From NCBI RefSeq assembly GCF_900099825.1, contig NZ_LT629693.1, forward strand, positions 4,785,001-4,849,000: a stretch of 64,000 nt of DNA, in the 5' to 3' direction. This stretch comes from Bradyrhizobium ottawaense. GTDB taxonomy: Bacteria; Pseudomonadota; Alphaproteobacteria; Rhizobiales; Xanthobacteraceae. The translations under genes were made by a program, and so were the position numbers. The notes below the pieces were generated by a model that was given only the letters and a program-made list of their open reading frames with translations, made no database searches and had not been told where the DNA came from. Below, piece after piece: positions 14,796 to 30,704 of this stretch. Numbering within the stretch: the first letter of the stretch is position 1; each line of letters begins with the position of its first letter.

Positions 14796-14822
14796 TGTCG
14801 GCGCGCGGTCTCCCCGTTCGTC
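14796..14822 (+). promoter_or_regulatory. ECF42-type promoter 1 (TGTCGG-N17-CGTC)
   Basis: TGTCGG at 14796-14801 and GTTCGTC ending at 14822 are separated exactly as in four other promoters of this window. The downstream ATG is 34 bases away. It should be read by the sigma factor encoded at 20122. Confidence 0.72.
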
Positions 14823-14856
14823 CCCGGGACGTGGTTCACGAGGAAAGAGAGACATA

Positions 14857-15507
14857 ATGGGAAAAGTAAGGGTTTCCGCCTTCTCGGTATCGCTGGATGG
14901 ATTTGCGGCGGGTCCGGGTCAGGACCTGCAACATCCGTTCGGTGTCGGCGCCGATGCAGTGCCCGCCTGGCTTCGTCAAACGAAAATGTTTCACGACATG
15001 ATCGGCCAGCCGGGTGGGACTACCGGCATCGACGACGACGTCGCCCGCAGCTCGATGGAAAATATCGGCGCCTGGATCATGGGCCGCAACATGTTCGGCC
15101 CGATCCGCGGCCCGTGGCCCGATGAATCCTGGAAGGGCTGGTGGGGACCCAATCCGCCATATCACGTTCCGGTGTTCGTGCTGACGCACCATGCGCGCCC
15201 GCCGATCGAGATGGAGGGCGGCACGGTGTTCCACTTCGTGACCGATGGAATCGAGTCAGCGCTGGCGCGGGCAAAGCAAGTCGCGGGGGCAAGGGACATC
15301 CGGATCGGCGGCGGTGCTTCGGTGATCCGGCAATATCTGCAGGCGCGCCTGATCGATGAAGTTCGCCTGGCCGTCGCCCCGGTGTTTGTCGGCGCGGGAG
15401 AGAACCTGTTTTCCGGGCTCAATCTGCCCGATCTCGGCTATGCCTGCGTCGAGAGCACCGCGGGCGCGAATGCCACGCATGTCCGCGCCGTGCGGCAGTC
15501 GTCGTAG
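14857..15507 (+). CDS. Dihydrofolate reductase / RibD C-terminal family reductase
   Basis: A 216-residue protein of the DHFR-like RibD-C fold: VSAFSVSLDGFAAGPGQD at the N-terminus, IMGRNMFGP, HVPVFVLTHHARP and IRIGGGASVIRQYLQARLIDEVRL. It is probably an NADPH-dependent reductase of unknown substrate. AGGAAAGAGA precedes the ATG. An ECF42-type promoter directly upstream places it in the regulon with the YCII, DoxX and GST genes, though it lies 5 kb from the sigma gene. Confidence 0.87.
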   Translation: MGKVRVSAFSVSLDGFAAGPGQDLQHPFGVGADAVPAWLRQTKMFHDMIGQPGGTTGIDDDVARSSMENIGAWIMGRNMFGPIRGPWPDESWKGWWGPNPPYHVPVFVLTHHARPPIEMEGGTVFHFVTDGIESALARAKQVAGARDIRIGGGASVIRQYLQARLIDEVRLAVAPVFVGAGENLFSGLNLPDLGYACVESTAGANATHVRAVRQSS

Positions 15508-15611
15508 CGCGGCAAAATTGTGTCGTCCCGGTCTCGCCGGGACGGCTGGCGCCGCGCTGGCGTTCCCGATCCCCAGGCGGTATAATTTCCGAACACTTGG
15601 CGGGTGCGCGG

Positions 15612-16232
15612 ATGTCGGTTTTCTCAAGCAGATTGGCTCTTGCAGTTGGATTGGCAGCGCTCGGCCTGGGCGGACCAATCGCGCATGCCCAAGGCACGTC
15701 GGTGCCCTACTATTGGGCCTCGGGCTGGTCATCGGGCTTTGGCGGCAACCTCGGCGCCGATCAGGGCTCGAACGCGAATATAAATGGCGATCCTGCGGGC
15801 TTCGCCAACAACGCCGCCGGCCCCGGCGCGTTTATGCAGCGCTACAGTTTTTCCAGCAGCAATTTCCTCAATAACGAACGCGGCGGTTTGGGCTCCAGTG
15901 GGCTGGGCCTGACCGGCCTGAACCAGACCGCGGCGTTCGGCTCCTCGTTCACTTACGACGGCGTGCAGGTCGGCTACAATTTCAAGAACTCGCCTGTCTC
16001 GGTCTTCGCCGGGTTCGACACGGCAAAATACAATCCCGGCCTCGGCGCCAATCCATTCTCGCCGTTCGACACTTCGTCAAACGCAACACCCGGTTATACC
16101 GCGCGGGCGGGAGTCGAATTCAAGCCGACGTCGAACCTCAGCCTGTCGCTCGGCGCGAGCTTCACGCAAGCGGGCAGCGACAACAGCGCGGTGGTGCTGC
16201 CCGGCGCTTCGCCGTTTGGCGTCCGCCGCTGA
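15612..16232 (+). CDS. Secreted outer-membrane-like beta protein
   Basis: A 206-residue protein with a signal peptide (LALAVGLAALGLGG, then AHAQ). A Gly/Asn/Ser-rich body follows, with alternating aromatic strands such as TYDGVQVGYNFKNSPVSVFAGFD and ARAGVEFKPTSNLSLSLGASF. This fits part of an outer membrane beta-barrel, but it is short and lacks the usual C-terminal Phe. Function unknown. Confidence 0.65.
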   Translation: MSVFSSRLALAVGLAALGLGGPIAHAQGTSVPYYWASGWSSGFGGNLGADQGSNANINGDPAGFANNAAGPGAFMQRYSFSSSNFLNNERGGLGSSGLGLTGLNQTAAFGSSFTYDGVQVGYNFKNSPVSVFAGFDTAKYNPGLGANPFSPFDTSSNATPGYTARAGVEFKPTSNLSLSLGASFTQAGSDNSAVVLPGASPFGVRR

Positions 16233-16309
16233 GGAGTGCGGAATCCGGTGTATCCGAATTCCCGGCGTGTTATCATCAGGCAATAAACAATAAGTCCGAG
16301 GAACCGCTC

Positions 16310-16651
16310 ATGGCCAACTGCATCGTTGTCGTTCAGTTTGATTTGCCCAAGCGCACGGAAGAACAGGCAGTGAAAGGCGGCGCTTCCACCGCGCCGATCT
16401 ATCGCGGCCTCGCCAACAAAGGGTTGATCCGCAAGGACTACCTGAACGGCGAAAGCGGCACTGGCGGCGTGTATCTCTGGGACAGCCGCGAGTCGGCGGA
16501 AGCCTGGTTTACCGAGGAGCGCATCGCGGAATTGACCCAGCGCTTCGGCGTTCGGCCGCGCCTCACCTGGTACGACACCCACGTGACCGTCGATAATCTG
16601 AAGGACGAGACGCGTGTCAACGGCAAGGCGATCGAGATGGCAGCCACGTGA
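16310..16651 (+). CDS. YdhR/ABM-like small protein, putative monooxygenase fold
   Basis: A 113-residue protein starting MANCIVVVQFDLPKRTEEQA, with GLIRKDYLNGESGTGGVYLWDSRESAEAWFTEERIAELTQRFG. The ferredoxin-like alpha/beta pattern resembles YdhR-type putative monooxygenases. No cofactor motif is visible, so the activity is a guess from the fold. A terminator follows. Confidence 0.7.
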   Translation: MANCIVVVQFDLPKRTEEQAVKGGASTAPIYRGLANKGLIRKDYLNGESGTGGVYLWDSRESAEAWFTEERIAELTQRFGVRPRLTWYDTHVTVDNLKDETRVNGKAIEMAAT

Positions 16652-16694
16652 AACGTCGCGGGTTGTGACGCAGGTAACGAAATCCAGCATGAGG

Positions 16695-16720
16695 AGCCGC
16701 CGCTAGGCGGCTTTTCTTTT
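16695..16720 (+). terminator. Rho-independent terminator
   Basis: AGCCGCC-GCTA-GGCGGCT forms a 7-bp GC stem followed by TTTCTTTT. It lies 44 bp after the YdhR-like gene. Confidence 0.85.
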
Positions 16721-16878
16721 GCCCGGCTCCAGCGCTATCGGCTTCTCGCAGTACGATTTGACGCAATCCGTTCCGCCAGCTTTGCTGCTATGGATACTTG
16801 GCGCAGCAGGTTGATCGGGCGATCCCCGGTCGGTTGCTGCGGTGCGCAAAAAAAACAAAATTTGGGGAGGGCACTATC

Positions 16879-17871
16879 GTGATCCATCGGCTTCTGAGAA
16901 GCGCGTTTACAGGTTTGGGCCTTTTGCTGGTCGCGCCTTTGACGCAGGCCCACGCGCAATCGCCCGCCAAGACGGTGACGCTGGTGGTTCCCTATGCCGC
17001 CGGTGGCGGCACGGATACTGTTGCGCGTCTGATCGGCGAGCGGATGTCGCGCACGCTCGGCCAGGCCGTCATCGTCGAGAATCAAGTCGGTGGCGGCAGC
17101 ACACTCGCCAACGATCGTGTTGCCCGCTCGGCGCCCGACGGGACCACCGTCCTGATCAACCACGTCGCGCTGCTGGCGGCGCCCAGCCTGTTCAACAATC
17201 TGCGCTACGATACGAAGACGGCGTTCGAGCCGGTCGGCCTCGTCAACAACGCGCCGATGGTTCTGATCGGCCGCAAGTCGATACCCGGTGCCACACCGCA
17301 GGATTTCGTGGCCTGGATCAAGACGCAGCGCGACAAGGCGAACTTTGCACACGGGGGGATCGGAACCAACAGTCACCTGTGCGCCGTCATGATGGGCAAT
17401 GTTCTTGGCTTCACGCCGACCATCGTGGCCTATCGCGGATCGGGTCCGGCGATCGGAGATCTGCTGGCGGGGCAGATCGATCTGCTATGGGATCAAGTCA
17501 CCAATGCGCTGCCGCAGATTCAGGCCGGAACGCTTCACGGCATCGCCATCACGTCGCCAGAGCGGCTTGAACAGTTGAAGGACGTGCCGACCACGGCCGA
17601 ACTCGGCATGCCCGAAGTCAGTTATTCGATGTGGCATGGGCTCTATGTCGCAAAGGGCACGCCGAGGGAGACCGTCGTCGCGCTGAATTCGGCGCTCCGC
17701 AAGGCGCTGTCCGACCCGGAACTAGTGGAGAAGCTGAAGCAGCTCGGAACACTGCCATTCCCTGACAACGAGTTGACGCCTGAGGCCCACGCGCGTTTGT
17801 TCGCCGCTGACCTGCCACGGGTGGCAAAGCTCGTTGAAAGCTCGGGAATCATGGCGAGCGAAGCGAAGTAA
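16879..17871 (+). CDS. Bug/TctC-type periplasmic binding protein
   Basis: A 330-residue solute receptor of the tripartite tricarboxylate family. A signal peptide (LLRSAFTGLGLLLVAPLTQAHAQ) is followed by VTLVVPYAAGGGTDTVARLIGERM, ENQVGGGSTLANDRVARSAPDG and GGIGTNSHLCAVM. The GTG at 16879 is preferred because GGGGAGGG lies just upstream and the signal peptide then starts normally; an ATG at 16798 gives an atypical leader. No TctA/TctB membrane partner is in the window, so it is an orphan receptor with unknown ligand. Confidence 0.87.
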   Translation: MIHRLLRSAFTGLGLLLVAPLTQAHAQSPAKTVTLVVPYAAGGGTDTVARLIGERMSRTLGQAVIVENQVGGGSTLANDRVARSAPDGTTVLINHVALLAAPSLFNNLRYDTKTAFEPVGLVNNAPMVLIGRKSIPGATPQDFVAWIKTQRDKANFAHGGIGTNSHLCAVMMGNVLGFTPTIVAYRGSGPAIGDLLAGQIDLLWDQVTNALPQIQAGTLHGIAITSPERLEQLKDVPTTAELGMPEVSYSMWHGLYVAKGTPRETVVALNSALRKALSDPELVEKLKQLGTLPFPDNELTPEAHARLFAADLPRVAKLVESSGIMASEAK

Positions 17872-17943
17872 GGGCGGCCTTAAGTTGCGGAGCGGAGTCT
17901 GATTCAAAAGTAGGGCAGTAAAATCGGGCTAAGCACCTCACCT

Positions 17944-18033
17944 GTCATGCCCGGGCTTGTCCCGGGCATCCACGTCTTAGCTGTGTCGGCCGACGAAAAA
18001 CGTGGATGGCCGGGACAAGCCCGGCCATGACGG
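17944..18033. repeat. Dispersed palindromic repeat (GTCATGCCCGGG type)
   Basis: The left arm GTCATGCCCGGGCTTGTCCC pairs with CGGGACAAGCCCGGCCATGA on the right around a short centre. A second copy is at 21413-21536. It lies between convergent genes. Confidence 0.75.
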
Positions 18034-18112
18034 AAAATGTCTGGCTTTGATCGGGTCGGAAAGGGGTCTGAAAAGCGCTTGTCGGCTTTTCGATCAGACT
18101 TTGAGGCGACCG

Positions 18113-19084
18113 CTAATACCCTCGCTTGCGATCCACCACGTTCTCCAGCGCGCCGCCGGCTTCAAACCGTTCGATCTGCTGTGCGACGTATTTCGAGATT
18201 TCGTCGGGATCGGTATCGGCCGCATTGTGCGGCGTCAGCACCACTTTTGGGTGGGTCCAGAACCGGCTGTCTGATGGCAACGGTTCGGTGGCGTAGACGT
18301 CGAGCGACGCGCCGCCGAGGGTGCCGTCGTCGAGACACTGCAAAATATCTGCCTCGTTCTGCAGGCTGCCGCGGCCGGCATTGATCAGCACTGGCGCGCC
18401 CATCGGGCTCGTGCGATTCAGTTGGGCGAAGAGATCGCGGTTGAGCACGTGCCGGGTGTCAGGCGTCAGCGGCAGCAGGCAGACCAGGATGTCGGTACGG
18501 CGGAGGAACGGCTGCAGTTGTTGCGCGCCGGCGAAGCAATCGATGCCGTCGATCTGTCGCGGGCTCCGGCTCCAGCCCGCGACGCGAAAGCCGATGTGCC
18601 GGAGCATTTTCGCGGCATGGGCACCCAGTGTGCCGAGCCCCATGACGCCGACCGAGATCGCGCCGGCGGCCCATTGCGATTTCGGCGCCCAGCGTTTGGC
18701 GCGCTGCGACTCCCGCAAGTAAGGTTCCTGCCGGTGATGCATCAGCACGTGCAGCACGACGTACTCCGTCATGCGTTCGGTGAGATCGTCGACCGCGACG
18801 CGCACCAGCGGCACGTCGGGTAGCGACTTGTCCGCCATCAGGGCATCGACGCCGGCACCGAGATTGAAGATGACGCGCAGATTGGGGAACGCGGCGAGTT
18901 CCCCCGGATGCGGTTTCCAGACCGCGGCATAGTGCACCTCGGCCGGATCGAACGCCGCGTCCGGCAACTGCAGCACGCGCCGCCCCCCGCAGACCTCGTC
19001 GAACCGGTTCTTCCACCGCTGCGGCGACCAGTTTTCGGTCCCGCCATGCACCAGCAGAGCGAGCGCACCCTTGTTCATTGCCAT
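18113..19084 (-). CDS. D-2-hydroxyacid dehydrogenase, glyoxylate/hydroxypyruvate reductase type
   Basis: A 323-residue NAD(P)-dependent reductase. The cofactor motif is VGVMGLGTLGAHAAKML and GWSRSPR supports NADPH preference. Catalytic residues are visible: Arg in INAGRGSL, Glu in DVYATEPLP and His in LTPHNAAD. The similarity is to GhrA-type enzymes, which reduce glyoxylate and hydroxypyruvate. It stands alone on the minus strand. Confidence 0.88.
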   Translation of the reverse strand: MAMNKGALALLVHGGTENWSPQRWKNRFDEVCGGRRVLQLPDAAFDPAEVHYAAVWKPHPGELAAFPNLRVIFNLGAGVDALMADKSLPDVPLVRVAVDDLTERMTEYVVLHVLMHHRQEPYLRESQRAKRWAPKSQWAAGAISVGVMGLGTLGAHAAKMLRHIGFRVAGWSRSPRQIDGIDCFAGAQQLQPFLRRTDILVCLLPLTPDTRHVLNRDLFAQLNRTSPMGAPVLINAGRGSLQNEADILQCLDDGTLGGASLDVYATEPLPSDSRFWTHPKVVLTPHNAADTDPDEISKYVAQQIERFEAGGALENVVDRKRGY

Positions 19085-19192
19085 TCCCTGTTCTTCGCCT
19101 TCTTCGCTGTCCCGTCGTCAGCGTGACCTGTATCACATAACGCATTGGACCAATTCCATAGTCTCATTTCATCAAACAACGGGAGACTTCAC

Positions 19193-19477
19193 ATGCGCAA
19201 ACTGATCCTGATTTCCGCTTTCGCGCTCGCCTCGGTTTCCGCCTCGGTTTCGGCGCGGGCCGGCGACCGCAGCCTGATCCTCGCGGCCAACGACGCTCCG
19301 GCAGCCACGACCACGGCCCCCGCGGAAGCCAAGCCGGAAGTCACCACCGATACCGCCAAGCCGGAAGCGACGAAGAAGCAGGCTTCGAAGCCCCAGAAGA
19401 CCCACGCTCGCCACACCTATGAGGGCGACGAGGCGAAGGCCCGCCGGATTGCCGCGCGGTATGGCGTCTACTGGTAA
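19193..19477 (+). CDS. Small secreted Ala/Lys/Thr-rich protein
   Basis: A 94-residue protein with a signal peptide (MRKLILISAFALASVSASVSARAG). A low-complexity Ala/Pro/Thr/Lys stretch follows, and the basic C-terminus ends AKARRIAARYGVYW. GGGAG lies 8 bases before the ATG at 19193. No domain is recognised; it is probably periplasmic. Confidence 0.72.
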   Translation: MRKLILISAFALASVSASVSARAGDRSLILAANDAPAATTTAPAEAKPEVTTDTAKPEATKKQASKPQKTHARHTYEGDEAKARRIAARYGVYW

Positions 19478-19567: not shown

Positions 19568-19684
19568 ATGAAAACGTTCAAGAACGTGATTTTCATTCTC
19601 TGTGTGTGCAGTCTTTGTTCCAAGGCGGTTATGCACACTTACCGCCACTTCAATCCGGCTCCAGTTGTGGCGGTCGGTCCCTGA
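19568..19684 (+). CDS. Possible 38-residue membrane peptide
   Basis: The frame MKTFKNVIFILCVCSLCSKAV continues to PAPVVAVGP with one hydrophobic segment rich in Cys. It lies after the secreted-protein gene. An in-frame start at 19496 would lengthen it. Nothing beyond composition supports it. Confidence 0.3.
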   Translation: MKTFKNVIFILCVCSLCSKAVMHTYRHFNPAPVVAVGP

Positions 19685-19701
19685 AATTTCTTCCATACCC
19701 C

Positions 19702-19728
19702 TGTCGGCTGCGGGCATACTCGTTCGTC
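19702..19728 (+). promoter_or_regulatory. ECF42-type promoter 2, autoregulatory
   Basis: TGTCGG at 19702-19707, a 17-base spacer and CGTC at 19725-19728, with the shared GTTCGTC. It is 28 bases before the YCII gene that is coupled to the sigma factor, so the sigma factor would drive its own operon. Confidence 0.75.
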
Positions 19729-19756: not shown

Positions 19757-20125
19757 ATGCTGTACGCCATCCTTTGCTATCACGACGAAGACCATGTGGG
19801 GTCCTGGACCAAGGAACAGGACGCCGCCGTCATGCAGAAGCTCACCGTCGTGCAGGATAAGTTGACCCAACAGGGCCGGCTCGGCCCGGTGGCGCGGCTG
19901 TTGCCGACCACGGCGGCGACGACCTTGCGCAAGGAAGATCCGCCTGTGGTCCTCGACGGTCCGTTTGCCGAGACCAAGGAACAGTTGCTCGGCTTTTACG
20001 TCATCGACTGCAAGAACCTCGACGAGGCGCTCGACGTCGCCCGCGATCTCGGCAAGGCCAATCCGGGCGGCGCCTACGAGATCCGCCCGGTCGGCATGTT
20101 CACGCCGGGGAGTGTCCGGACGTGA
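19757..20125 (+). CDS. YCII/DGPF-domain protein
   Basis: A 122-residue protein of the YCII-related fold (MLYAILCYHDEDHVGSWTKE) containing the DGPF motif in VVLDGPFAETKEQL. Proteins of this family accompany ECF42 sigma factors. The biochemical role is unknown; the fold resembles dimeric alpha/beta-barrel enzymes. Its stop overlaps the GTG start of the sigma gene (GTGA), showing translational coupling. Confidence 0.9.
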   Translation: MLYAILCYHDEDHVGSWTKEQDAAVMQKLTVVQDKLTQQGRLGPVARLLPTTAATTLRKEDPPVVLDGPFAETKEQLLGFYVIDCKNLDEALDVARDLGKANPGGAYEIRPVGMFTPGSVRT

Positions 20126-21393
20126 CCGACACCGCCTGGATCGACGGCGCGCTGACGTCGGCACGTCCCCAGGCGGTCGGCGCGCTGCTGCGCTATTTCC
20201 GCAATCTCGATACCGCGGAGGAAGCGTTCCAGAACGCCTGCCTGCGCGCGCTGAAAAGCTGGCCGCAGAACGGCCCGCCGCGCGATCCGGCGGCGTGGCT
20301 GATCATGGTCGGGCGTAACGTTGCGATCGACGATATCAGGCGCGCCAAAAAGCAGACGCCGCTGCCCGAGGACGAGGCGATCTCCGATCTCGACGACGCC
20401 GAGGAAGAGCTGGCCGAACGGCTCGACGGCTCGCACTACCGCGACGATATCCTGCGGCTGCTGTTCATCTGCTGCCATCCCGAACTGCCGGCGACGCAGC
20501 AGATCGCGCTGGCGCTACGCATCGTCTCGGGCCTGACGGTGAAGCAGATCGCGCGCGCCTTCCTGGTCTCGGAAGCCGCGATGGAGCAACGCATCACGCG
20601 GGCCAAAGCGCGGGTCGCCGATGCCAATGTGCCGTTCGAAACACCAGATGCGGTGGCGCGGAGCGAACGGCTGGCGGCGGTCGCCGCGATGATTTATCTG
20701 ATCTTCAACGAGGGCTATTCGGCCAGCGGCGACACCGCCGAAATCCGCAAGCCGCTGTGCGAGGAAGCGATACGTTTGGCGCGGCTGCTGCTGCGGCTGT
20801 TCCAGAGCGAGCCCGAGATCATGGGGCTGACAGCGCTGTTGTTGCTGCAGCACGCCCGTGCCGACGCAAGGTTCGATAGCGATGGCGCGGTAATCCTGCT
20901 CGACGATCAGGACCGCGCGCTGTGGAACCAGAAGATGATCGCCGAGGGGGTGGCGCTGATCGACAAGGCGATGCGTCATCGCCGCAGCGGGCCCTATCAG
21001 ATCCAGGCCGCGATATCGGCACTGCATGCACGCGCCGCCAAGCCTGAAGAGACCGACTGGACCCAGATCGACCTGCTCTACGGCGCGCTCGAAATCATGC
21101 AGCCGTCGCCGGTGGTCACCTTGAACCGCGCGGTCGCGGTTTCCAAGGTGCGGGGCGCGGGAGCCGCGCTCGAGATGATCGAGCCGCTGGCGTCGCGGCT
21201 GTCGAACTATTTTCATTTCTTCGGCGTGCGCGGCGCCTTCCTGATGCAGCTCGGGCGCAACGACGAGGCGGCCATCGCCTTCGACCGCGCCATCGCGCTC
21301 GCCAACACCTCGGCGGAAGCCGCCCATATCCGCATGCACCTCGACCGCCTGCAGCGCGACAGTTCACCGCGCGGCGTGAAGGCGGGGAAGTAG
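20122..21393 (+). CDS. ECF42-type RNA polymerase sigma factor
   Basis: A 423-residue ECF sigma factor. Region 2 is in the first 80 residues (DTAEEAFQNACLRALKSWP, DPAAWLIMVGRNVAIDDIRR). Region 4 follows at about 125-170 (QIALALRIVSGLTVKQIARAFLVSEAAMEQRITRAKAR). A long C-terminal extension of about 250 residues starts with the family hallmark MIYLIFNEGYSASGD and has TPR-like helices. ECF42 members have no anti-sigma factor; the extension is thought to regulate them. It starts with GTG overlapping the YCII stop. Five matching promoters in this window are its likely targets. Confidence 0.92.
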   Translation: MTDTAWIDGALTSARPQAVGALLRYFRNLDTAEEAFQNACLRALKSWPQNGPPRDPAAWLIMVGRNVAIDDIRRAKKQTPLPEDEAISDLDDAEEELAERLDGSHYRDDILRLLFICCHPELPATQQIALALRIVSGLTVKQIARAFLVSEAAMEQRITRAKARVADANVPFETPDAVARSERLAAVAAMIYLIFNEGYSASGDTAEIRKPLCEEAIRLARLLLRLFQSEPEIMGLTALLLLQHARADARFDSDGAVILLDDQDRALWNQKMIAEGVALIDKAMRHRRSGPYQIQAAISALHARAAKPEETDWTQIDLLYGALEIMQPSPVVTLNRAVAVSKVRGAGAALEMIEPLASRLSNYFHFFGVRGAFLMQLGRNDEAAIAFDRAIALANTSAEAAHIRMHLDRLQRDSSPRGVKAGK

Positions 21394-21536: not shown

Positions 21537-21559
21537 AAGTAGAAAAATAATCATCCCCC

Positions 21560-21586
21560 TGTCGGAATCCTCCCCCGTCGTTCGTC
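21560..21586 (+). promoter_or_regulatory. ECF42-type promoter 3
   Basis: TGTCGG at 21560-21565, a 17-base spacer and CGTC at 21583-21586. The tail CGTCTAGTAGACGAG is almost identical to promoter 5. It precedes the DoxX-SRPBCC-VOC operon by 39 bases. Confidence 0.75.
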
Positions 21587-21625
21587 TAGTAGACGAGCAG
21601 CCATTTTGGACAAGGGGAGCAAGCC

Positions 21626-22039
21626 ATGACCACGATCACAGCAACCATGCCGGTCTCGAAGCCAGCGCGCTGGGTCGGCCGTATCCTCAGCGGTCTGGTC
21701 ATCGTGTTCCTGATGCTCGACGGCGCCATCAAACTGGTGCCGTGGCCGGTCGTCACCGACACCATGGACAAGATGGGCTATGGCTCCAGCGAAACGCTGG
21801 CGCGCAGCCTTGGGGTCATCACCATCGTCTGCACCGTGCTCTATTCGATTCCGCCGACCTCGATCCTCGGTGCGATCCTGCTGACCGGCTATCTCGGCGG
21901 CGCGATGGCATCGCATGTCAGGATCGGAAGCCCGCTGTTTACCCACACGCTGTTCGGACTGTATCTCGGTCTCATGCTATGGGGTGGGCTGTGGCTGCGC
22001 GATCGCAACCTGCGCACGCTGATCCCCTTTCAACGCTGA
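21626..22039 (+). CDS. DoxX-like four-helix membrane protein
   Basis: A 137-residue inner-membrane protein with four hydrophobic helices (ILSGLVIVFLMLDGAIKLVP, SLGVITIVCTVLYSIPP, LGAILLTGYLGGAMASHVR, HTLFGLYLGLMLWGGLWL). This matches DoxX-like proteins linked to redox or detoxification functions. It is the first gene of a three-gene operon behind an ECF42-type promoter. Confidence 0.87.
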   Translation: MTTITATMPVSKPARWVGRILSGLVIVFLMLDGAIKLVPWPVVTDTMDKMGYGSSETLARSLGVITIVCTVLYSIPPTSILGAILLTGYLGGAMASHVRIGSPLFTHTLFGLYLGLMLWGGLWLRDRNLRTLIPFQR

Positions 22040-22075
22040 CTCATTTTGAAACCATTCACGTAACCGGAGTTGGAC

Positions 22076-22612
22076 ATGCTCGAAGTCATTGCCGTCATCG
22101 CCGTCATCCTGGCGGTCGCCATCGCCGTGGTGCTCGTTCTCGCCGCGACCAAGCCGGGCCGTTTCAGCGTCCGCCGCGAAATCAGGGTGCACGCGCCGGC
22201 GGAAAAGATCTTTCCGCTGATCAACGATTTTCATCGATGGGTCGACTGGTCGCCCTATGAGCACAAGGATCCCGCGCTGAAGCGCACCTATAGCGGCCTG
22301 GAGAGCGGCAAGGGCGCGGTCTATGCGTGGGACGGCAACAACAATGTCGGTTCCGGCCGCATGGAAATTCTGGAAAGTGCCGCGCCGTCGAAGATCGTCA
22401 TCCAGCTCGATTTCTTCAAACCGATCGAGGGCCACAACACCGCCGAGTTCACAATGCTGCCGCAGGGCGATGGCACCCATGTGATCTGGCTGATGCACGG
22501 TCCGGCGTCGTTCATGAACAAGCTGATGCAGGTGTTCATGAATCTGGACCGGATGATCGGCAAGGATTTCGAAGCCGGTCTCGTCAATCTGAAAAACGTC
22601 ACCGAAAAATAG
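22076..22612 (+). CDS. Membrane-anchored SRPBCC (START/polyketide cyclase-like) protein
   Basis: A 178-residue protein: one N-terminal membrane helix (VIAVIAVILAVAIAVVLVLA), then an SRPBCC lipid/ligand-binding fold (FSVRREIRVHAPAEKIFPLI, FHRWVDWSPYE). The ligand is unknown. CCGGAG lies 5 bases before the ATG. It is 36 bp after the DoxX gene and 31 bp before the VOC gene, consistent with one transcript. Confidence 0.87.
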   Translation: MLEVIAVIAVILAVAIAVVLVLAATKPGRFSVRREIRVHAPAEKIFPLINDFHRWVDWSPYEHKDPALKRTYSGLESGKGAVYAWDGNNNVGSGRMEILESAAPSKIVIQLDFFKPIEGHNTAEFTMLPQGDGTHVIWLMHGPASFMNKLMQVFMNLDRMIGKDFEAGLVNLKNVTEK

Positions 22613-22643: not shown

Positions 22644-23054
22644 ATGCAAATCAATCCCTACCTGTTCTACGACAGCAATTGCGAAGCGGCGTTCAAGTTC
22701 TATGAGAAGGTGCTGGGCGGCAAGATCGAACTGATGTTGCGCAACGCGGAAGGCCCGCCTGAGATGGGAACGGCGCCGGATCGCATGCAGAAAATCATGC
22801 ACGCCCGGATGTCGATCGATGGCGAGGTGCTGATGGCCTCGGACGCGCCGCCCGATCATTTCAACAAGCCGCAGGGCTTTGCGGTATCCCTCACCGTCAA
22901 CGATCCCGCCGAGGCCGAGCGCAGGTTCAAGGCGCTGTCGGAAGGCGGCAGCGTCAACATGCCCTTCAGCAAGACCTTCTTCTCGAAGGGCTTTGGCATG
23001 TGCAACGACCAGTTCGGCATACCCTGGATGGTCAACTGCCCGCTGGAAGACTGA
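22644..23054 (+). CDS. VOC/PhnB-type glyoxalase-fold protein
   Basis: A 136-residue PhnB-like protein (MQINPYLFYDSNCEAAFKFYEKVLGGKI, HARMSIDGEVLMASDAPPD, GMCNDQFGIPWMVNC). It resembles the VOC-fold relatives of glyoxalase and bleomycin-resistance proteins. No activity is established for this subfamily. It is the last gene of the ECF42-linked operon. Confidence 0.88.
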   Translation: MQINPYLFYDSNCEAAFKFYEKVLGGKIELMLRNAEGPPEMGTAPDRMQKIMHARMSIDGEVLMASDAPPDHFNKPQGFAVSLTVNDPAEAERRFKALSEGGSVNMPFSKTFFSKGFGMCNDQFGIPWMVNCPLED

Positions 23055-23696: not shown

Positions 23697-24713
23697 TCAA
23701 TCGCCTGCGCCGGAAACGCCGGCCTCGGCGAAGGTTGCCATTCCGAGGTGGCAGGCAAGCGCCGCGCGCAGCAGCAGGATCGCAACCGCCGCGCCTGAGG
23801 CTTCGCCGAGCCGCATGTTGAGATCGAGCAGTGGGTCGAGATGGAGTTCGCGCAGGAGATCGCGATGGCCCGACTCGGCCGAGACGTGCCCGGCACGGCA
23901 GTGATCCAGCATGCCGCCGGCAAGCCGCGCCAGCGGCAGCACCGCGGCTGTTGCGACGAAACCGTCGAGCAGCACCGGGACGCCACGTTGCCGTGCGGCG
24001 AGAACGGCGCCCGATATCGCCGCGAGTTCGCGGCCGCCGAGGGCTGCGGCCACCGCCAGGGGATCGCCGAGAAGGCGCTCGTGCACCTTCAGCGCCGCCT
24101 CGATCGCGGTGCGCTTGCGCGATAGCCCGTCATCGTCGACGCCGGTGCCGCGCCCGGCCCAGTGGCTGGCGCCGCCGCCGAGCAGCGCCGCGCACAGCGT
24201 CGCGGCGGTCGTGGTGTTGGCAATTCCCATTTCGCCGACGACCAGGAGATCGCAATCGTTGGCCACCGCGTGACAGCCGGTATCAATCGCGCTGAGGAAA
24301 TCTTCCGTGTCCATCGCCGCCGCCACCGTGAAATCCCGCGTCGGCCGGTCGAGTTCGAGTGGCACCACGCGCAATTCGGCGCCGGCGAGCGTGGCGATCT
24401 GGTTGATCGCGGCCCCGCCGGCGGCAAAATTCGCCACCATCTGCGCAGTGACTTCCGGCGGATAGGCCGAGACGCCGCGGGAGGCGATGCCGTGATTGCC
24501 GGCGAACACGGCAATGGTGATCCGGTCGAGCCGCGGCGTGGCGTTTTCCTGCCAGCGTGCCAGCCAGATCGCCAGCTCTTCGAGGCGACCGAGGCTTCCC
24601 GGCGGCTTGGTCAGGTTCTGCTGCCGGAGCGCTGCGGCATCGGCCGCCTGCGCATCGCCCCCGGGCAGGTCGCGACAGAACGCGCGGATGTCATCTAGAC
24701 TGTTAAACCGCAT
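23697..24713 (-). CDS. cobT: Nicotinate-nucleotide--dimethylbenzimidazole phosphoribosyltransferase
   Basis: A 338-residue enzyme that activates dimethylbenzimidazole to alpha-ribazole phosphate for the lower ligand of cobalamin. Hallmarks are TKPPGSLGRLEELA, FAGNHGIASRGVSAYP, GEMGIANTTTAA, the substrate-site AESGHRDLL and the closing LRAALACH. It is divergent from cobS, whose product uses alpha-ribazole. No cobalamin riboswitch was seen in the 108-bp gap. Confidence 0.95.
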   Translation of the reverse strand: MRFNSLDDIRAFCRDLPGGDAQAADAAALRQQNLTKPPGSLGRLEELAIWLARWQENATPRLDRITIAVFAGNHGIASRGVSAYPPEVTAQMVANFAAGGAAINQIATLAGAELRVVPLELDRPTRDFTVAAAMDTEDFLSAIDTGCHAVANDCDLLVVGEMGIANTTTAATLCAALLGGGASHWAGRGTGVDDDGLSRKRTAIEAALKVHERLLGDPLAVAAALGGRELAAISGAVLAARQRGVPVLLDGFVATAAVLPLARLAGGMLDHCRAGHVSAESGHRDLLRELHLDPLLDLNMRLGEASGAAVAILLLRAALACHLGMATFAEAGVSGAGD

Positions 24714-24821
24714 GCGATTTCCCTACAACGTCACCTGAAAAAGCAAACCGGTTTCCCGGGCAACACCATGCCCGGACATGTCGAGCCGATCGCACGCTAA
24801 AACGATTCCTTGGGCACCACC

Positions 24822-25574
24822 ATGAATGAATGGCTCGCCGATTTCAAAATGGCCACGGGTTTTCTGACCCGGCTGCCGGTGCCGCATCCGGACGGCGCGG
24901 GGCCGGCAAATTTTGCCCGCGCTTACCGGCTGTTTCCGCTCGTCGGCGCCCTGATCGGTCTCGCGATGGGCGTGCTCTGCCTGGCGCTGCGGCAGGTCGG
25001 TGTGCCCGATCTGGCGGTCGCGGCGCTGGTGTTGGGCGCCGGCGCGGTCTTGACCGGCGCGCTGCACGAGGATGGCCTCGCCGACGTCGCCGACGGCTTT
25101 GGCGGCGGCCGCGACGTCGAAGCCAGGCTTGCGATCATGCGCGACAGCCGGATCGGCACCTATGGCGCCATGGCCCTGCTGGTCAGCTTTGCGACCAAAC
25201 TTTCCGCGCTGGCGGCGATCCCGGACGGCTATGTCGTCCATAGCCTGATCGTGGCGCATGCGCTGGCGCGCGGTATGTTGCCGGCCATTGCGGCAAACCT
25301 TCCCTATGCGCGCCAGGATGGTTTGGCCCGCACCTCAGGCCAGCCGGATACGACGACGGCGGCGATTGCAGGTGCGCTCGCGCTGTTGATCGCGCTGCTG
25401 TCGCTGTCATGGGCCGAGGCGCTGTGGGCCGCGGTTGCGGCTGGCATCAGCGGCTTCGTCATCGCGCGGCTGGCGCTGCGGCAGATCGGCGGCCAGACCG
25501 GCGACGTGCTGGGGGCAGCCGAGCAGGTCGCCGAAACCGCGATCCTGGTGCTGCTCGCCGCAAGACTGGCATAG
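24822..25574 (+). CDS. cobS: Adenosylcobinamide-GDP ribazoletransferase (cobalamin synthase)
   Basis: A 250-residue polytopic membrane enzyme that joins adenosylcobinamide-GDP with alpha-ribazole. Visible motifs are FLTRLPVP at the N-terminus, then GALHEDGLADVADGFGGGRD (acidic active-site cluster) and MRDSRIGTYGAMAL. ATG 24822 gives the family N-terminus; the TTG at 24810 adds four residues. cobC follows after 7 bp. Confidence 0.94.
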   Translation: MNEWLADFKMATGFLTRLPVPHPDGAGPANFARAYRLFPLVGALIGLAMGVLCLALRQVGVPDLAVAALVLGAGAVLTGALHEDGLADVADGFGGGRDVEARLAIMRDSRIGTYGAMALLVSFATKLSALAAIPDGYVVHSLIVAHALARGMLPAIAANLPYARQDGLARTSGQPDTTTAAIAGALALLIALLSLSWAEALWAAVAAGISGFVIARLALRQIGGQTGDVLGAAEQVAETAILVLLAARLA

Positions 25575-25581
25575 GCCCGAG

Positions 25582-26238
25582 ATGAGCGCTGCGACACAGC
25601 TGTGGCTGATCCGGCATGCGCCGGTCGATGGCCCGCGCGGCGTCATTCATGCCGCCGACGCGCCGGCCGATCTCAGCGACATCGCCGCCTTCGCGGCGCT
25701 GAAGGCGCGGTTGCCCGCTTCCGCGCATGCCGTCTGCAGTCCGATGCGCCGCACGCGGGAAACCGCTGCGAGGCTCGGGCTCGATGCGGTCAACGAGTCC
25801 GATTTCGCCGAGCAGGATTTTGGGGCCTGGACCGGACGGCGTCACGACGATCTTTCTATCGAGCTCGGCGCTCCCTATCAGGAATTCTGGAAATCGCCGG
25901 CGGTTAGCCGCGCGCCCGGCGGCGAAAGTTTTGTCGATCAGATCGAACGCGCCAGAGCGGGCCTTGCGCGTTTGCCCGCCGGCGACGCCGTGCTGGTCGT
26001 GCATTCCGGCACCATCCGCGCCGTGCTCGCCATCGCGCTCGACCTTTCGCCCGACTCTGCCTTGCGCTTCGCGATCGATCCGCTGTCGCTGACCCGGATC
26101 GATCGGCTGAAGGATGGATGGCGCGTGGTTGGCGTCAACCAGCGCTACCCGTTCCGCCGTTCGCCGCGCAGGGTCGGCAGGCCGATGCCGGCGGCATCGA
26201 AGCCGCCGTCGACGGCGAGAACTTGCCCGGTGATGTAG
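25582..26238 (+). CDS. cobC: Histidine phosphatase, probable alpha-ribazole phosphatase
   Basis: A 218-residue phosphoglycerate-mutase-like phosphatase. The phosphohistidine site is LWLIRHAPVDG, the acid region is FAEQDFGAWTGRRHDDL and the second His is VVHSGTIRAVL. Being 7 bp after cobS, it probably removes phosphate in the lower-ligand branch. The last 94 bp overlap the 3' end of a convergent SDR gene, which is unusual and makes the last 30 residues (Arg/Pro-rich) look like an extension. Confidence 0.85.
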   Translation: MSAATQLWLIRHAPVDGPRGVIHAADAPADLSDIAAFAALKARLPASAHAVCSPMRRTRETAARLGLDAVNESDFAEQDFGAWTGRRHDDLSIELGAPYQEFWKSPAVSRAPGGESFVDQIERARAGLARLPAGDAVLVVHSGTIRAVLAIALDLSPDSALRFAIDPLSLTRIDRLKDGWRVVGVNQRYPFRRSPRRVGRPMPAASKPPSTARTCPVM

Positions 26239-26933: not shown

Positions 26934-27092
26934 GGGGATCCGTTCGCGAAAGGTGAGGTTTCGCGACCCTATAGCCCATGCCCCGCGCCGAGTCCCGGCA
27001 ACCGTGGCGCACATCTCCCCGGCCCGGGCCGCGCCGTGCGGCGACCCCGGGGGCAGAGGCGCCAGGCGCCCCGCTTACGATTCAACGATGGT

Positions 27093-27383
27093 TCAAGCGG
27101 TCTTGTTCTTGAGGGCGCCGACGATTGCGGTGAGAACCGCACCCGCAACGCCGCCACCGGCGACCTGGCCGACAATGCTGCCGATATCCGGCGTCGAAGC
27201 CGAATTGGCGAGCAGCGGAATCAGCATGCCGAGGATCTGGCCTCCGGCGCCGCCGCCGATGGCGCCCGCGACCGTGTTTCCGAGTGTACCGAGATCGATA
27301 TTCTTGGCCGCCCCCGCAGCGACGTTTCCACCGATGGCGCCGCTGACGATCTGGATCAGCAGGTTGATGAGTAATCCCGACAT
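27093..27383 (-). CDS. Small Gly/Ala-rich hydrophobic protein
   Basis: A 96-residue protein (MSGLLINLLIQIVSGAIGGNV) with repeated Gly-rich turns (GAIGGGAGGQILGMLIPLL, GQVAGGGVAGAVLTAIVGAL). It is probably membrane-associated or self-assembling. No known domain. It is isolated on the minus strand. Confidence 0.7.
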   Translation of the reverse strand: MSGLLINLLIQIVSGAIGGNVAAGAAKNIDLGTLGNTVAGAIGGGAGGQILGMLIPLLANSASTPDIGSIVGQVAGGGVAGAVLTAIVGALKNKTA

Positions 27384-27589
27384 GACGCGATGCTCCCCTA
27401 GTCCGGAGAATCAGTTTCAGCGTGTGCGGTGCCGGACTATCGCCGCAGGGTAGAGCTTAGGCGCTGGAACGCCAAAGGTCATGCTGCGTGCGTGAAGGAT
27501 TGCGACGAAATATGCGTTTCTACCCGGTGATGTTGCCGATCGGTTCGACGATCCCGCCCATTACCTGCGCCGCGTCGCGGTTCTAATAA

Positions 27590-28084
27590 CTATTTTCGAT
27601 TCACGACGCTCAAATACGCCGCCTGCAACCGCTCGCCCACCGAAGGTCCTCGCTTCCGCCTGACGGCGCCGAGATGGATCTCGCGCAATTCGTCCATGAA
27701 CTCGGCCCACATTTTCGGTCCGCCCTCGCTCAGGAGTCGGGCGCGGATGCCGAGCTCCTCGCTGACGGGAAGATACTTGTAACCCCACGCCGACATCTGC
27801 GCGAGAACCGGCAGCAGTTCGATGCCCTGTTCGGTCAGCGAATAGATTCCCTTCTGCTTGTGGGTGGGGTCGCCGTCGCGGGTGATGATGCCTTGCTCGA
27901 GCAGCGTCTTCAGCCGGTCGGCGAGGATGTTGGAGGAGATGCCCTCATCGGACTTGGTCAGCAACTCGCGAAAATGCCGCCGGTTGCCGAACATCATGTC
28001 GCGGATGATGAGCAGGCTCCATTTGTCGCCGACCACTTCCAGCGTGAGGTTGATCGGGCAGCCGGAGCGCTGGGCGTCGGTCAT
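27590..28084 (-). CDS. HxlR-family winged-helix regulator
   Basis: A 164-residue protein with the HxlR pattern: CPINLTLEVVGDKWSLLIIRDMMFGNRRHFRELL, GISSNILADRLKTLLEQGIITR and YSLTEQGIELLPVL. Such regulators respond to quinones, aldehydes or other electrophiles, often via the N-terminal Cys (present in SGCPINL). It is divergent from a GST-SnoaL operon, its likely target along with itself. Confidence 0.92.
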   Translation of the reverse strand: MTDAQRSGCPINLTLEVVGDKWSLLIIRDMMFGNRRHFRELLTKSDEGISSNILADRLKTLLEQGIITRDGDPTHKQKGIYSLTEQGIELLPVLAQMSAWGYKYLPVSEELGIRARLLSEGGPKMWAEFMDELREIHLGAVRRKRGPSVGERLQAAYLSVVNRK

Positions 28085-28125
28085 GGCGTGGTCTCGCGGC
28101 AGGCGGCGCCGTCAAAAAAACTGCT

Positions 28126-28137
28126 TGCAATATTGCA
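28126..28137. promoter_or_regulatory. Palindrome in the hxlR-gst intergenic region
   Basis: TGCAATATTGCA is a perfect 12-bp palindrome 41 bp upstream of the HxlR gene; a related GTTGCAAAACGCAA lies nearby. It is a candidate HxlR operator by position only. Confidence 0.4.
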
Positions 28138-28228
28138 CCGGTTTGGCCAGAGTACAACCAGTTGCAAAACGCAATCGGTTTGACGAAGCTGATCGGCGCG
28201 CCGGCTGCGAAATAATTCGCGTGATCCA

Positions 28229-28255
28229 TGTCGGCGGACCTCAACACGGTTCGTC
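28229..28255 (+). promoter_or_regulatory. ECF42-type promoter 4
   Basis: TGTCGG at 28229-28234, a 17-base spacer and CGTC at 28252-28255. It lies 23 bases before the GST start codon. An in-frame ATG at 28228 falls on the -35 element, which argues against that ATG being used. Confidence 0.72.
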
Positions 28256-28278
28256 TTGCCTCTATACCGGGAGTTTCC

Positions 28279-28932
28279 ATGTCGCTGACGCTGCATTTCC
28301 ACCCCTTGTCGTCGTTCTGCTGGAAGGCGCTGATCGCGCTGTACGAGAACGACATTCCGTTCACGCCGAATTCGGTCAATCTCGGCGATCCGGTCGAGCG
28401 CGCGGCGCTGCTCAAGCTGTGGCCTGTCGGCAAGTTCCCGGTGCTGCGCGACGACGCACGCGGCGAGACCGTGCCGGAGTCCAGCATCATCATCGAATAT
28501 CTCGACCGCCACTATCGCGGCCCAACCAGGTTCATTCCCGACGACGTTCACAGCGCATGGCAGACGCGGCTGCGCGACCGGTTCTATGATCTCTATGTCC
28601 ATCTGCCGATGCAGAAGATCATGGGCGACCGGCTGCGGCCGGACGGCAACAAGGATCCTCACGGCGTCGCGGAGGCGCGCGCCCAGTTGCGGACATCGTA
28701 TGCGATGATCGAGCACCAGATGGCCCGTGGCGGCTGGGCGATGGGCGGCGAATTCGGCCTTGCCGATTGCGCCGCGTTGCCGCCGCTGTTCTACGGCAAC
28801 ATGGTCGAGCCGTTCGGCGCAGCCCACGGCCGTGTGAGCGCGTATCTCGAGCGCCTGAAGGCGCGCCCTTCGGTCGCCCGCGTGCTGAAGGAGGCCGAGC
28901 CTTACTTCCACATGGTGCCGAAGGAGCGCTAG
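28279..28932 (+). CDS. Glutathione S-transferase
   Basis: A 217-residue GST. The N-terminal thioredoxin domain is LHFHPLSSFCWKALIALYEN with LWPVGKFPVLRDD and PESSIIIEYLDRHY; the C-terminal domain has GEFGLADCAALPPLF. The SSFCWK segment places Ser/Cys where GSH is activated. The start at 28279 is chosen because the upstream in-frame ATG overlaps the promoter. It abuts the SnoaL gene with no gap, forming a two-gene operon. Confidence 0.9.
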   Translation: MSLTLHFHPLSSFCWKALIALYENDIPFTPNSVNLGDPVERAALLKLWPVGKFPVLRDDARGETVPESSIIIEYLDRHYRGPTRFIPDDVHSAWQTRLRDRFYDLYVHLPMQKIMGDRLRPDGNKDPHGVAEARAQLRTSYAMIEHQMARGGWAMGGEFGLADCAALPPLFYGNMVEPFGAAHGRVSAYLERLKARPSVARVLKEAEPYFHMVPKER

Positions 28933-29304
28933 ATGGATCAGGCCAACCGGGCGGATACCATCCGCGCCATCTTTGCGGCCTATCTGTCCAGCAACCGCAA
29001 GCTGCTCGAAGACGCGCTCAGCGACGATTTCCGCTTCACCAGCCCGTATGACGACAACATCGACAAACCGGGTTATTTCGAGCGGTGCTGGAAGAACAGC
29101 GACTGGATCGAGCGGCATGAGCTGGAGCGCATTTTCGTGGAAGGCGACGAGGCCTTCGTGACGTATCTTTGCGTGGCCAGAGGCGGCAAGCGCTTTCGCA
29201 ACACCGAGTTCTTCGCCTTCGATGGCGACAAGGTGAAACGCATCGACGTCTATTTCGGCGCGACTTACGAAAACGGCCTCTTCGTCAGGCAGAGCGAAAG
29301 CTGA
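28933..29304 (+). CDS. SnoaL-like NTF2-fold protein
   Basis: A 123-residue protein (IRAIFAAYLSSNRKLLEDALSDDFRFTSPYDD, FFAFDGDKVKRIDVYFG) of the SnoaL-like fold. The ligand or reaction is unknown. Its ATG directly follows the GST stop codon, so the two are probably made together under the ECF42-type promoter. Confidence 0.88.
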   Translation: MDQANRADTIRAIFAAYLSSNRKLLEDALSDDFRFTSPYDDNIDKPGYFERCWKNSDWIERHELERIFVEGDEAFVTYLCVARGGKRFRNTEFFAFDGDKVKRIDVYFGATYENGLFVRQSES

Positions 29305-29320
29305 TTTGCGATGGCTGCGG

Positions 29321-29581
29321 TCAGCAGTGGCGACAAATCGCGAGCTTGCGATCGAACTCTTCCTCGTTTCTGATAAAGGCATCCTGCCTGGCTTCGGTCG
29401 GAACATCGCTGGCACGGGGTTGGCGATGCCCGGTCGGCGCCGGCCATGGTTTGACGCCGGCGTCGATCGGCAGATTTGCCGGAGGACGCGGTGTGGCGAT
29501 CTCCGCCCGTGCTGCGGCGATGGGAGCGGCGAGTATTGTCGCGGCGAGGCCGAGGACTTTCAGGTGTGATGAGAACGGCAT
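29321..29581 (-). CDS. Small secreted protein
   Basis: An 86-residue protein with a signal peptide (LKVLGLAATILAAPIAAARAE). The Pro-rich mature part ends RNEEEFDRKLAICRHC with a CxxC-like pair. GGAG lies 9 bases before ATG 29581; a longer start at 29641 is less likely. Function unknown. It is transcribed toward the SnoaL gene. Confidence 0.65.
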   Translation of the reverse strand: MPFSSHLKVLGLAATILAAPIAAARAEIATPRPPANLPIDAGVKPWPAPTGHRQPRASDVPTEARQDAFIRNEEEFDRKLAICRHC

Positions 29582-29710
29582 GGCAACTGGCTCCGTTGTG
29601 ACCATGCATTGCCTATCGTCGCCGGGTCCGCGATATTCCAATGCGCGCTGGCCGGATTTCCGGAGGCCGCCGATTCGTCGGCAATGACTTCCAAAATAAT
29701 TCTCAGGCCA

Positions 29711-29737
29711 TGTCGGCGCCGCAAAACCCCGTTCGTC
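29711..29737 (+). promoter_or_regulatory. ECF42-type promoter 5
   Basis: TGTCGG at 29711-29716, a 17-base spacer and CGTC at 29734-29737, followed by TAGTTGACGAG as in promoter 3. It is 56 bases before the first of two YCII genes. Confidence 0.75.
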
Positions 29738-29793
29738 TAGTTGACGAGCGCCGATGTGATACGGCCTGATGAGACCTCAAACGGAGCGTGACG

Positions 29794-30210
29794 ATGCGAT
29801 TTATGGTGATTGTGAAAGCCAGCAGGGATTCCGAGGCCGGCGTGATGCCCAGCACGGAATTGTTGACCGCGATGGGCAAGTTCAACGAGGAGATGGTCAA
29901 GGCCGGCATCATGGAGGCCGGCGAGGGCCTGCATCCGACCTCGAAGGGCGCGCGGATCAAATATTCGGGAGGGCAGGGCACTGCGACAAATGGTCCGTTC
30001 GCGCTGAGCGGCGACCTCATCGCCGGCTTCTGGCTGATCAAGACCAAGTCGCTGGACGAAGCGATCGCCTGGATGAAGCGCGCGCCGTTCGGCGGCGGCG
30101 ACGAGATCGAGATTCGCCAGGTGTTTTCCGCCGAGGACTTTGGCGAAGCCCTGACCCCCGAATTGCGCGAGCAGGAAGAACGCCTGCGGGCGCAGGCGGC
30201 AAAGAAATAA
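29794..30210 (+). CDS. YCII-family protein (NGPF variant)
   Basis: A 138-residue protein (MRFMVIVKASRDSEAG, KARIMEAGEGLHP-like region, TNGPFALSGDLIAGFWLIKTKS). It has Asn instead of Asp in the DGPF motif. The tail is charged and helical. GGAG is 7 bases before the ATG at 29794. It is the first gene after ECF42-type promoter 5. Confidence 0.9.
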   Translation: MRFMVIVKASRDSEAGVMPSTELLTAMGKFNEEMVKAGIMEAGEGLHPTSKGARIKYSGGQGTATNGPFALSGDLIAGFWLIKTKSLDEAIAWMKRAPFGGGDEIEIRQVFSAEDFGEALTPELREQEERLRAQAAKK

Positions 30211-30220
30211 TTCTCTCCGC

Positions 30221-30261
30221 GTCATTCCGGGTCTGGTCCTTCGGACCATCCCGGAATGACG
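30221..30261. repeat. Hairpin between the two YCII genes
   Basis: GTCATTCCGGGTCTGGTCC and GGACCATCCCGGAATGAC pair around TTCG. It may stabilise or partly terminate the transcript between the two genes, and also matches the style of genomic repeats. Confidence 0.65.
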
Positions 30262-30284
30262 GTAATCATCAAGGACACCCCACC

Positions 30285-30704
30285 ATGCGATTCATGATGC
30301 TGATGATCCCCCTCGGCTACGAGACCGCGCCGCCGGACGTACAGCTCGATCCCGAGCGGATGACGGCGATGATGAAATACAACGAGGCCCTGAAGGACGC
30401 CGGTGTGCTGATCACGCTCGACGGCTTGCACCCGCCGTCGATGGGCGCGCGGGTCTCCTTTGCATCAGGTAAACCTGTCGTGACCGACGGTCCGTTTACC
30501 GAGGCCAAGGAAGTGCTCGGCGGTTACTGGATGATCGACGTTGCCTCCCGCGAGGCCGCGATCGCCTGGGCCAGCCAATGTCCGGCCTCGGCGAACGAGA
30601 TCATCGAAATCCGCCAGGTGCACGAGATGTCTGATTACTCGGAAGAGTTTCAGCAGGCCGCCGGCGGATTCGAGGATCTGCCGGGCAGGGCAAGGCTTCG
30701 GTAA
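30285..30704 (+). CDS. YCII/DGPF-domain protein
   Basis: A 139-residue protein (MRFMMLMIPLGYETAPPD, GLHPPSMGARVSFASGKPVVTDGPFTEAKEVLGGYWMID) with an intact DGPF motif. It is paralogous to the gene just upstream and to that at 19757. No separate ECF42-type promoter is seen, so it is likely transcribed from promoter 5. Confidence 0.9.
   Translation: MRFMMLMIPLGYETAPPDVQLDPERMTAMMKYNEALKDAGVLITLDGLHPPSMGARVSFASGKPVVTDGPFTEAKEVLGGYWMIDVASREAAIAWASQCPASANEIIEIRQVHEMSDYSEEFQQAAGGFEDLPGRARLR

Follow-up and report, generated by a model that had tools for sequence, protein, structure and literature searches.

Five TGTCGG-N17-CGTC sites in Bradyrhizobium ottawaense as probable promoters of an ECF42 sigma factor

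Sigma factors of the extracytoplasmic function (ECF) group ECF42 are widespread; the literature consulted here gives no inducer for them, and few of their targets are mapped in it. The closest described counterpart of the system treated here is RpoE10 (SMc01150) of Sinorhizobium meliloti, an ECF42 factor for which the same promoter motif has been published (PMC6180224). The Table 1 sequences of SMc01149, SMb20475 and SMc01151, which lie on two replicons, all read TGTCGG-N17-CGTC; those of SMc01149 and SMb20475 precede mapped transcription starts, and their operons rise upon RpoE10 overexpression (PMC6180224). Here we describe five copies of this motif in a 64,000-nucleotide stretch of Bradyrhizobium ottawaense (the window; contig NZ_LT629693.1, positions 4785001-4849000 of a genome of 8.34 Mb), together with the ECF42 gene that lies among them, termed ECF42-A (20122-21393). 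It is very probable that the five sites are promoters of RNA polymerase carrying ECF42-A, in a model that comprises a regulon, gating of the factor and insulation of its sister factors through residue 155. The set of sites is real and looks functional, and for the most part it belongs to a known kind; since RpoE10 has a TGTCGG-N17-CGTC regulon, such an ECF42 regulon is not new.

RpoE10 resembles ECF42-A in its YCII gene directly upstream, its TGTCGG-N17-CGTC sequences (three in S. meliloti) and the hydrophobic-ligand and glyoxalase-like domains among its targets; it also has a C-terminal extension of TPR type, as ECF42-A may well have (PMC6180224). The TPR extension and the YCII neighbor are likewise found in the ECF42 factors of Streptomyces venezuelae (Sven_0747, Sven_4377, Sven_7131) and Pseudomonas putida (ECF-10) (PMC8999054). 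The systems differ in extent: six responding genes are given for S. meliloti, whereas here there are five predicted promoters in the window and more elsewhere, with GST, DoxX, RibD-like, MFS, DUF2277 and Ku proteins as candidate targets beyond the S. meliloti set. In addition, S. meliloti is credited with one ECF42 factor in the material consulted, whereas this genome has three paralogs. The ECF42 motif of Streptomyces venezuelae and Pseudomonas putida is of the TGTCGA type. The preliminary description of this window had likewise compared the sites to a TGTCGA/CGTC-type promoter known for ECF42; the promoter published for S. meliloti is TGTCGG itself (PMC6180224). Our literature search found no paper linking ECF42 to Ku or splitting ECF42 paralogs by the sixth base of the −35 element, though either may be in print. 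What merits laboratory work is the paralog-specific base and the broader set of candidate targets that includes Ku.

An exact search of the window placed TGTCGG-N17-CGTC at 14796, 19702, 21560, 28229 and 29711, all on the plus strand and all with GTT directly before CGTC, reproducing every position first described. In 100 dinucleotide shuffles the motif occurred 0.22 times on average and at most twice. With up to two mismatches, the 13-base form (TGTCGG-N14-GTTCGTC) is present seven times (shuffle mean 2.61, with 3 of 100 shuffles reaching seven), and the two extra sites are about what the shuffles give. An initial expectation of 0.001 chance occurrences was overstated, because GTT had been noticed after the fact, but the controls uphold a count far above chance. 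The gaps to the start codons are 34, 28, 39, 23 and 50 bases (the last to GTG 29788; 56 to ATG 29794), in agreement with the range of 23-56 first given. A purine stands at CGTC+9, the start position in S. meliloti, in all five. The spacers are unrelated, with 3-7 of 14 bases alike, so the five sites are not recent copies of one another; those at 21560 and 29711 have 17 of 30 downstream bases in common. All five fall within 15 kb, so that the word dispersed, used of them at first, suits the genome better than the window.

Across the genome, genes were called with a small self-written codon-based gene finder, and a site was counted as before a gene when it lay within 250 bp of one. The 13-base form occurs nine times, versus none for the reversed pattern; eight sites lie outside genes and before one, and a single site is inside a gene. 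The form without the GTT requirement is weaker (42 sites versus 19 for the reversed control), and its 33 non-GTT sites comprise 17 inside genes, 7 before a gene and 9 with no called gene within 250 bp. The GTT-type sites beyond the window stand before genes for an MFS transporter, a 3-dmu-9_3-mt (VOC) protein and a DUF2277 protein. Non-GTT sites that match the theme precede GST, YCII, a second VOC protein and Ku, the last reading ATTCGTC rather than GTTCGTC in this genome. Three further non-GTT sites, before a histidine phosphatase and two short genes, may be chance. The gene set first listed holds for its window members, but the candidate target set is larger than the window.

The motif is strongly conserved. 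A scan for relatives of the sigma protein gave 343, and the analysis covered the 80 best loci among them (1,485,727 bases), mostly from records titled Bradyrhizobium. All 222 occurrences of the motif in these loci fall on the strand that is sense for the sigma gene, with none on the antisense strand. The sense and antisense controls gave 3 and 5 for N16 (8 in total), 6 and 3 for N18 (9 in total), 0 and 2 for the reversed motif, and 7 and 1 for a permuted motif. None of the 222 sites lies inside a called gene, though called genes cover 81% of the loci, and 217 have a called gene within 250 bp. The genes that follow, named as in the feature list below, are YCII_A (58), DoxX (34), GST (24), YCII_B (24), SRPBCC (23), YCII_C (19), RibD-like (17), SnoaL (7), VOC (1) and others (10), with none called at 5. 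AAA at −22 to −12 is found at 123 of 166 non-redundant sites, versus 5.8% of random positions, and T is the second base after CGTC in 94% of the relatives' sites. The reading of the sites as an ECF42 regulon is strengthened by how well they are conserved, by their bias to one strand, by the constant spacer and by the S. meliloti data (PMC6180224).

Pfam confirmed the domains first assigned in the window: RibD_C, YCII (three), sigma with DUF6596, DoxX_2, Polyketide_cyc2 (SRPBCC), Glyoxalase (VOC), GST and SnoaL_2. The features, with their support, are as follows.

14776..14783, plus strand: A/T tract (UP-like) upstream of the −35 element of the RibD-like promoter (A/T-tract analysis)
14796..14822, plus strand: predicted ECF42-A promoter TGTCGG-N17-CGTC (exact motif, genome-wide control)
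14857..15507, plus strand: RibD C-terminal domain reductase-like gene (PF01872; RibD-like after 17/222 sites in relatives)
19684..19692, plus strand: A/T tract upstream of the YCII-sigma promoter (A/T-tract analysis)
19702..19728, plus strand: predicted ECF42-A promoter of the YCII-sigma operon (exact motif; sixth base G in 80/80 orthologous operons)
19757..20125, plus strand: YCII_A, upstream of sigma and overlapping its start (PF03795)
20122..21393, plus strand: ECF42-A sigma factor with sigma2, sigma4, DUF6596 and a helical TPR-like C-terminal region (PF04542, PF08281, PF20239; structure model)
21543..21551, plus strand: A/T tract upstream of the DoxX promoter (A/T-tract analysis)
21560..21586, plus strand: predicted ECF42-A promoter of DoxX-SRPBCC-VOC (exact motif, conservation in relatives)
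21626..22039, plus strand: DoxX-like membrane protein (PF13564)
22070..22612, plus strand: SRPBCC (polyketide cyclase 2) protein (PF10604)
22644..23054, plus strand: VOC/glyoxalase-like protein (PF00903)
28210..28217, plus strand: A/T tract upstream of the GST promoter (A/T-tract analysis)
28229..28255, plus strand: predicted ECF42-A promoter of GST-SnoaL (exact motif, conservation in relatives)
28279..28932, plus strand: glutathione S-transferase-like protein (PF13417 and others)
28933..29304, plus strand: SnoaL-like protein, adjoining GST (PF12680)
29693..29701, plus strand: A/T tract upstream of the YCII_B promoter (A/T-tract analysis)
29711..29737, plus strand: predicted ECF42-A promoter of YCII_B, perhaps of YCII_C too (exact motif, conservation in relatives)
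29788..30210, plus strand: YCII_B, start GTG 29788 or ATG 29794 (PF03795)
30285..30704, plus strand: YCII_C, without an exact site of its own in the window (PF03795; site directly before YCII_C in 19 relatives' loci)

The ECF42-A protein has 423 residues; PF04542, PF08281 and TIGR02937 all score above cut-off, and DUF6596 spans residues 183-284. In the AlphaFold2 model (mean pLDDT 83.5) the C-terminal half is all-helical, with helices to residue 414. The top Foldseek matches are TPR proteins, none of them at E <= 0.001 and with low TM scores, and residues 361-403 match designed helical repeats and, weakly, the TPR region of OGT in profile searches; a Pfam scan found no TPR family. On balance these results lean toward a TPR-rich extension. 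ECF42-A bears the marks of an ECF42 factor: the ECF sigma2 and sigma4 domains, a C-terminal extension of about 200 residues, a YCII_A gene that adjoins and overlaps the sigma start, and TGTCGN-N17-CGTC/CGAC before the operon. Membership of ECF41 was rejected, as the Pfam scan found no SnoaL_2 domain, the ECF41 trait, fused to the C-terminus. No anti-sigma type protein was found by Pfam among ten cluster proteins scanned. Its counterparts in Bradyrhizobium australiense, retamae and murdochi share 93% identity with it. One copy of the sigma gene, 87% identical, comes from a record titled Frankia sp. RB7 (L128), a title that looks wrong for such a sequence.

In 40 genomes of the genus, the 13-base form occurs 175 times versus 6 for the reversed pattern, and at least once in every genome. 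Among 150 genomes order-wide it is present in 31, with the most, nine, in this genome, a survey that says little on other families. The genes that follow were named at 89 genus sites. Of these sites, 29 head the list for their genome, and 60 were hand-picked among the matches listed, with sites beside the sigma cluster left out. Because the sites were chosen by hand, the counts are not frequencies. Naming was by BLAST to reference proteins, three of which are themselves among the 89, and the labels AHSA1-like, third VOC and second RibD-like were given by eye. The genes are Ku (22, in 19 genomes), GST (14), VOC of three kinds (14), AHSA1-like (7), MFS (7), DUF2277 (5), YCII_C (4), YCII_A (2) and five others once each; the other sites lie inside a gene (5), were unassigned (2) or have none (2). 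Ku is a DNA end-joining protein, and its promoters read TGTCGGAAC-N11-GTTCGTC. In the 22 Ku promoters AAC follows TGTCGG, which creates GGAAC. We take GGAAC to be the EcfG −35 element, in a promoter of the form GGAAC-N16/17-CGTT. EcfG was rejected as the reader of the Ku promoters (TGTCGGAAC), as inspection by eye of the printed sites found no CGTT at the right spacing.

The genome has three DUF6596 sigma genes, each after a YCII gene, and the assignment of the sites to ECF42-A therefore rests on their match to its own promoter. The own promoters read TGTCGG..CGTC for ECF42-A, TGTCGA..CGTC for the second factor (B) and TGTCGT..CGAC for the third (C). All 40 genus genomes have a match to ECF42-A, which falls into two pieces in G009 and is partial in G016 and in G033. 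The second factor was matched in 26 of the genomes and the third in all 40 (split in G036). Own promoters were sought with the sixth base open and T or A open in the −10 element. For ECF42-A the sixth base is G at 80 of 80 loci; the pattern found 58 of these promoters, and the other 22 are variants that were read by eye (CGTT in 19, TGTAGG in 2, CGTCGG in 1). For the second factor, 23 promoters were found among 26 loci, all with A and CGTC; the same open pattern found none at L145, L160 and L166. The third factor has T and CGAC at 30 of 30 loci.

Residue-base pairing as the basis of ECF specificity is the subject of Todor et al. 2020, as described in PMC10880074. Compared with that sigma-promoter covariation, a pairing here would separate three paralogs of one group within one genome. 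The recognition helix of ECF42-A is SEAAMEQRITRAK, and E155 is present in 81 of 81 proteins, whereas residue 155 is A (18), S (7) or G (1) in the second factor and A (25) or G (4) in the third. A wider set comprised 163 ECF42 loci outside the genus, with Bradyrhizobium and partial matches left out. Ninety of these have one exact TGTCGN-N17-CGNC site and two have several. The sixth base and −10 element pair as G/CGTC (39), A/CGTC (32), A/CGAC (17), T/CGAC (1) and A/CGGC (1). With two of the 90 loci dropped for position and the three own factors added, 91 rows could be compared: G goes with E (39) or Q (1), A with A (31), G (12), S (4) or L (2), and T with A (2). Thus, the sixth base tracks residue 155 in 91 of 91 rows. 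Eight E155 rows lack an exact site; a relaxed site with G is present in six and none in two. For CGTC versus CGAC there are ten changes on the tree, and no column of the protein stands out.

Several observations weigh against this model. No exact site was found at 71 of the 163 wider loci. Among relaxed sites, L217 (A155, TGTCAG) and L355 (G155, TGTCTG) are exceptions, possibly with a different −35 reading at these operons, and L317, L265 and L222 are weaker ones. L307 has G but a helix pattern that was not recognized, and L306 has D155 with TGTCGA at spacing 16. The residue tracking has at most two independent origins: on a quick tree without the helix columns G arises twice, in a single large clade and in L256, and an independent-pairs test is without power. 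Column 6 scores equal to 155, and columns 234, 107, 224 and 364 are close behind. In S. meliloti, SMc01151, the first gene of the RpoE10 operon, is not raised by RpoE10, and its motif overlaps the mapped start (PMC6180224). By analogy with this overexpression without a rise of the own operon's first gene, autoregulation may fail here too. The MFS target is less sure, because an ECF41-like sigma gene with SnoaL_2 adjoins; the MFS gene with its ECF42-A type site (L057:5366-7692) lies just downstream of it.

The few origins, the powerless pairs test and the equal score of column 6 speak for inheritance within one clade, rather than contact, as the source of the tracking, an explanation that we consider rather unlikely but worth keeping in view. 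Against it, L256, the second origin, combines Q155 and TGTCGG inside an A155/TGTCGA clade. Moreover, E155 aligns with SigW K170 in a profile alignment. The −31 base of the template strand is contacted by K170 in SigW and by R171 in SigE, and G−35 by an arginine, though the K170 side-chain density is called weak (PMC6713349). If the G of TG is −35, the sixth base would lie at −31, and it makes chemical sense that charges are exchanged, with K/R going with C and E going with G. Because column 6 scores as high as 155, we treat the residue-base contact as a hypothesis.

A further rival explanation grants that these are promoters but has more than one ECF42 paralog, or some other ECF factor, act on them by cross-talk, leaving no distinct ECF42-A regulon; we consider it improbable. 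TGTCG and N17 are common to the three paralogs, A and B are separated by one −35 base, and relaxed sites are present in some species. Nevertheless, the sixth base of the own operons is G, A or T without exception among the 80, 23 and 30 promoters found. In a genome-wide search for B and C targets, which covered the GTT-bearing form only, TGTCGH-N14-GTTCGWC occurs just three times (reversed, twice): before the B operon, before the C operon, each time as the operon's own promoter, and once inside a gene. The last, a TGTCGA match at 4521201 within a called amidase-like gene, was rejected as a target and taken as chance.

Three regulator genes were identified by Pfam near the first, fourth and last promoters (TetR, 14097-14753; HxlR, 27590-28084; TetR, 30795-31520). 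An inverted repeat, CGTC-N5-GACG, overlaps the −10 element and predicted start at 14819-14831, 21583-21595 and 29734-29746, and most printed third-paralog promoters carry a matching CGAC-N5-GTCG. That the sites are operators of such a TetR- or HxlR-type regulator, rather than promoters, could be argued from this repeat at the 14796, 21560 and 29711 sites and from the distances (43 bp from the end of the first TetR gene to the first site, 145 bp between the HxlR start and the fourth site, and roughly 1 kb from the last site on to the second TetR gene), but we reject it as scarcely credible, given two asymmetric elements at a fixed 17-bp gap on one strand only (222 versus 0), identity to the S. 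meliloti promoters (PMC6180224), a position before sigma operons that varies with the sigma paralog, and a repeat present in just 23 of 221 relatives' sites, 12 of them YCII_B.

We propose that, in the polymerase with ECF42-A, sigma4 would read TGTCGG and sigma2 would read CGTC across a spacer fixed at 17 bp. The A/T tract 10-20 bp upstream probably assists via the alpha subunit, and transcription would begin at a purine some 9 nt downstream of CGTC. Once active, ECF42-A would raise its own YCII-sigma operon together with scattered small detoxification-type proteins, the MFS transporter and probably Ku. The DUF6596/TPR-like C-terminal region probably gates this activity, perhaps with YCII as a partner. 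The sister factors would keep to TGTCGA and TGTCGT, most simply via a differing residue 155 opposite the last −35 base. The chances are evenly balanced for a broader proposal, in which one genome has three insulated ECF42 circuits (E155 paired with G at −31 in ECF42-A, A155 paired with A or T in its two sisters) and ECF42-A governs a genus-wide response, linking detoxification of the electrophile type and export with Ku-dependent end joining. The genus-wide target list, including Ku, hints at which stresses to try, and this genome offers about a dozen candidate reporters. With one substitution and one base open to swapping, the three paralogs offer a ready-made test of how closely related sigma factors keep from acting on each other's promoters.

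Two further observations concern the intergenic and intervening regions. At 23697-26238, genes for a cobT-kind phosphoribosyltransferase, CobS and a histidine phosphatase (Pfam) split the ECF42 cluster into halves. A long hairpin, GTCATTCCGGG...CCCGGAATGAC, lies at 30221-30260 between YCII_B and YCII_C, with one copy in the window, and may limit read-through into YCII_C.

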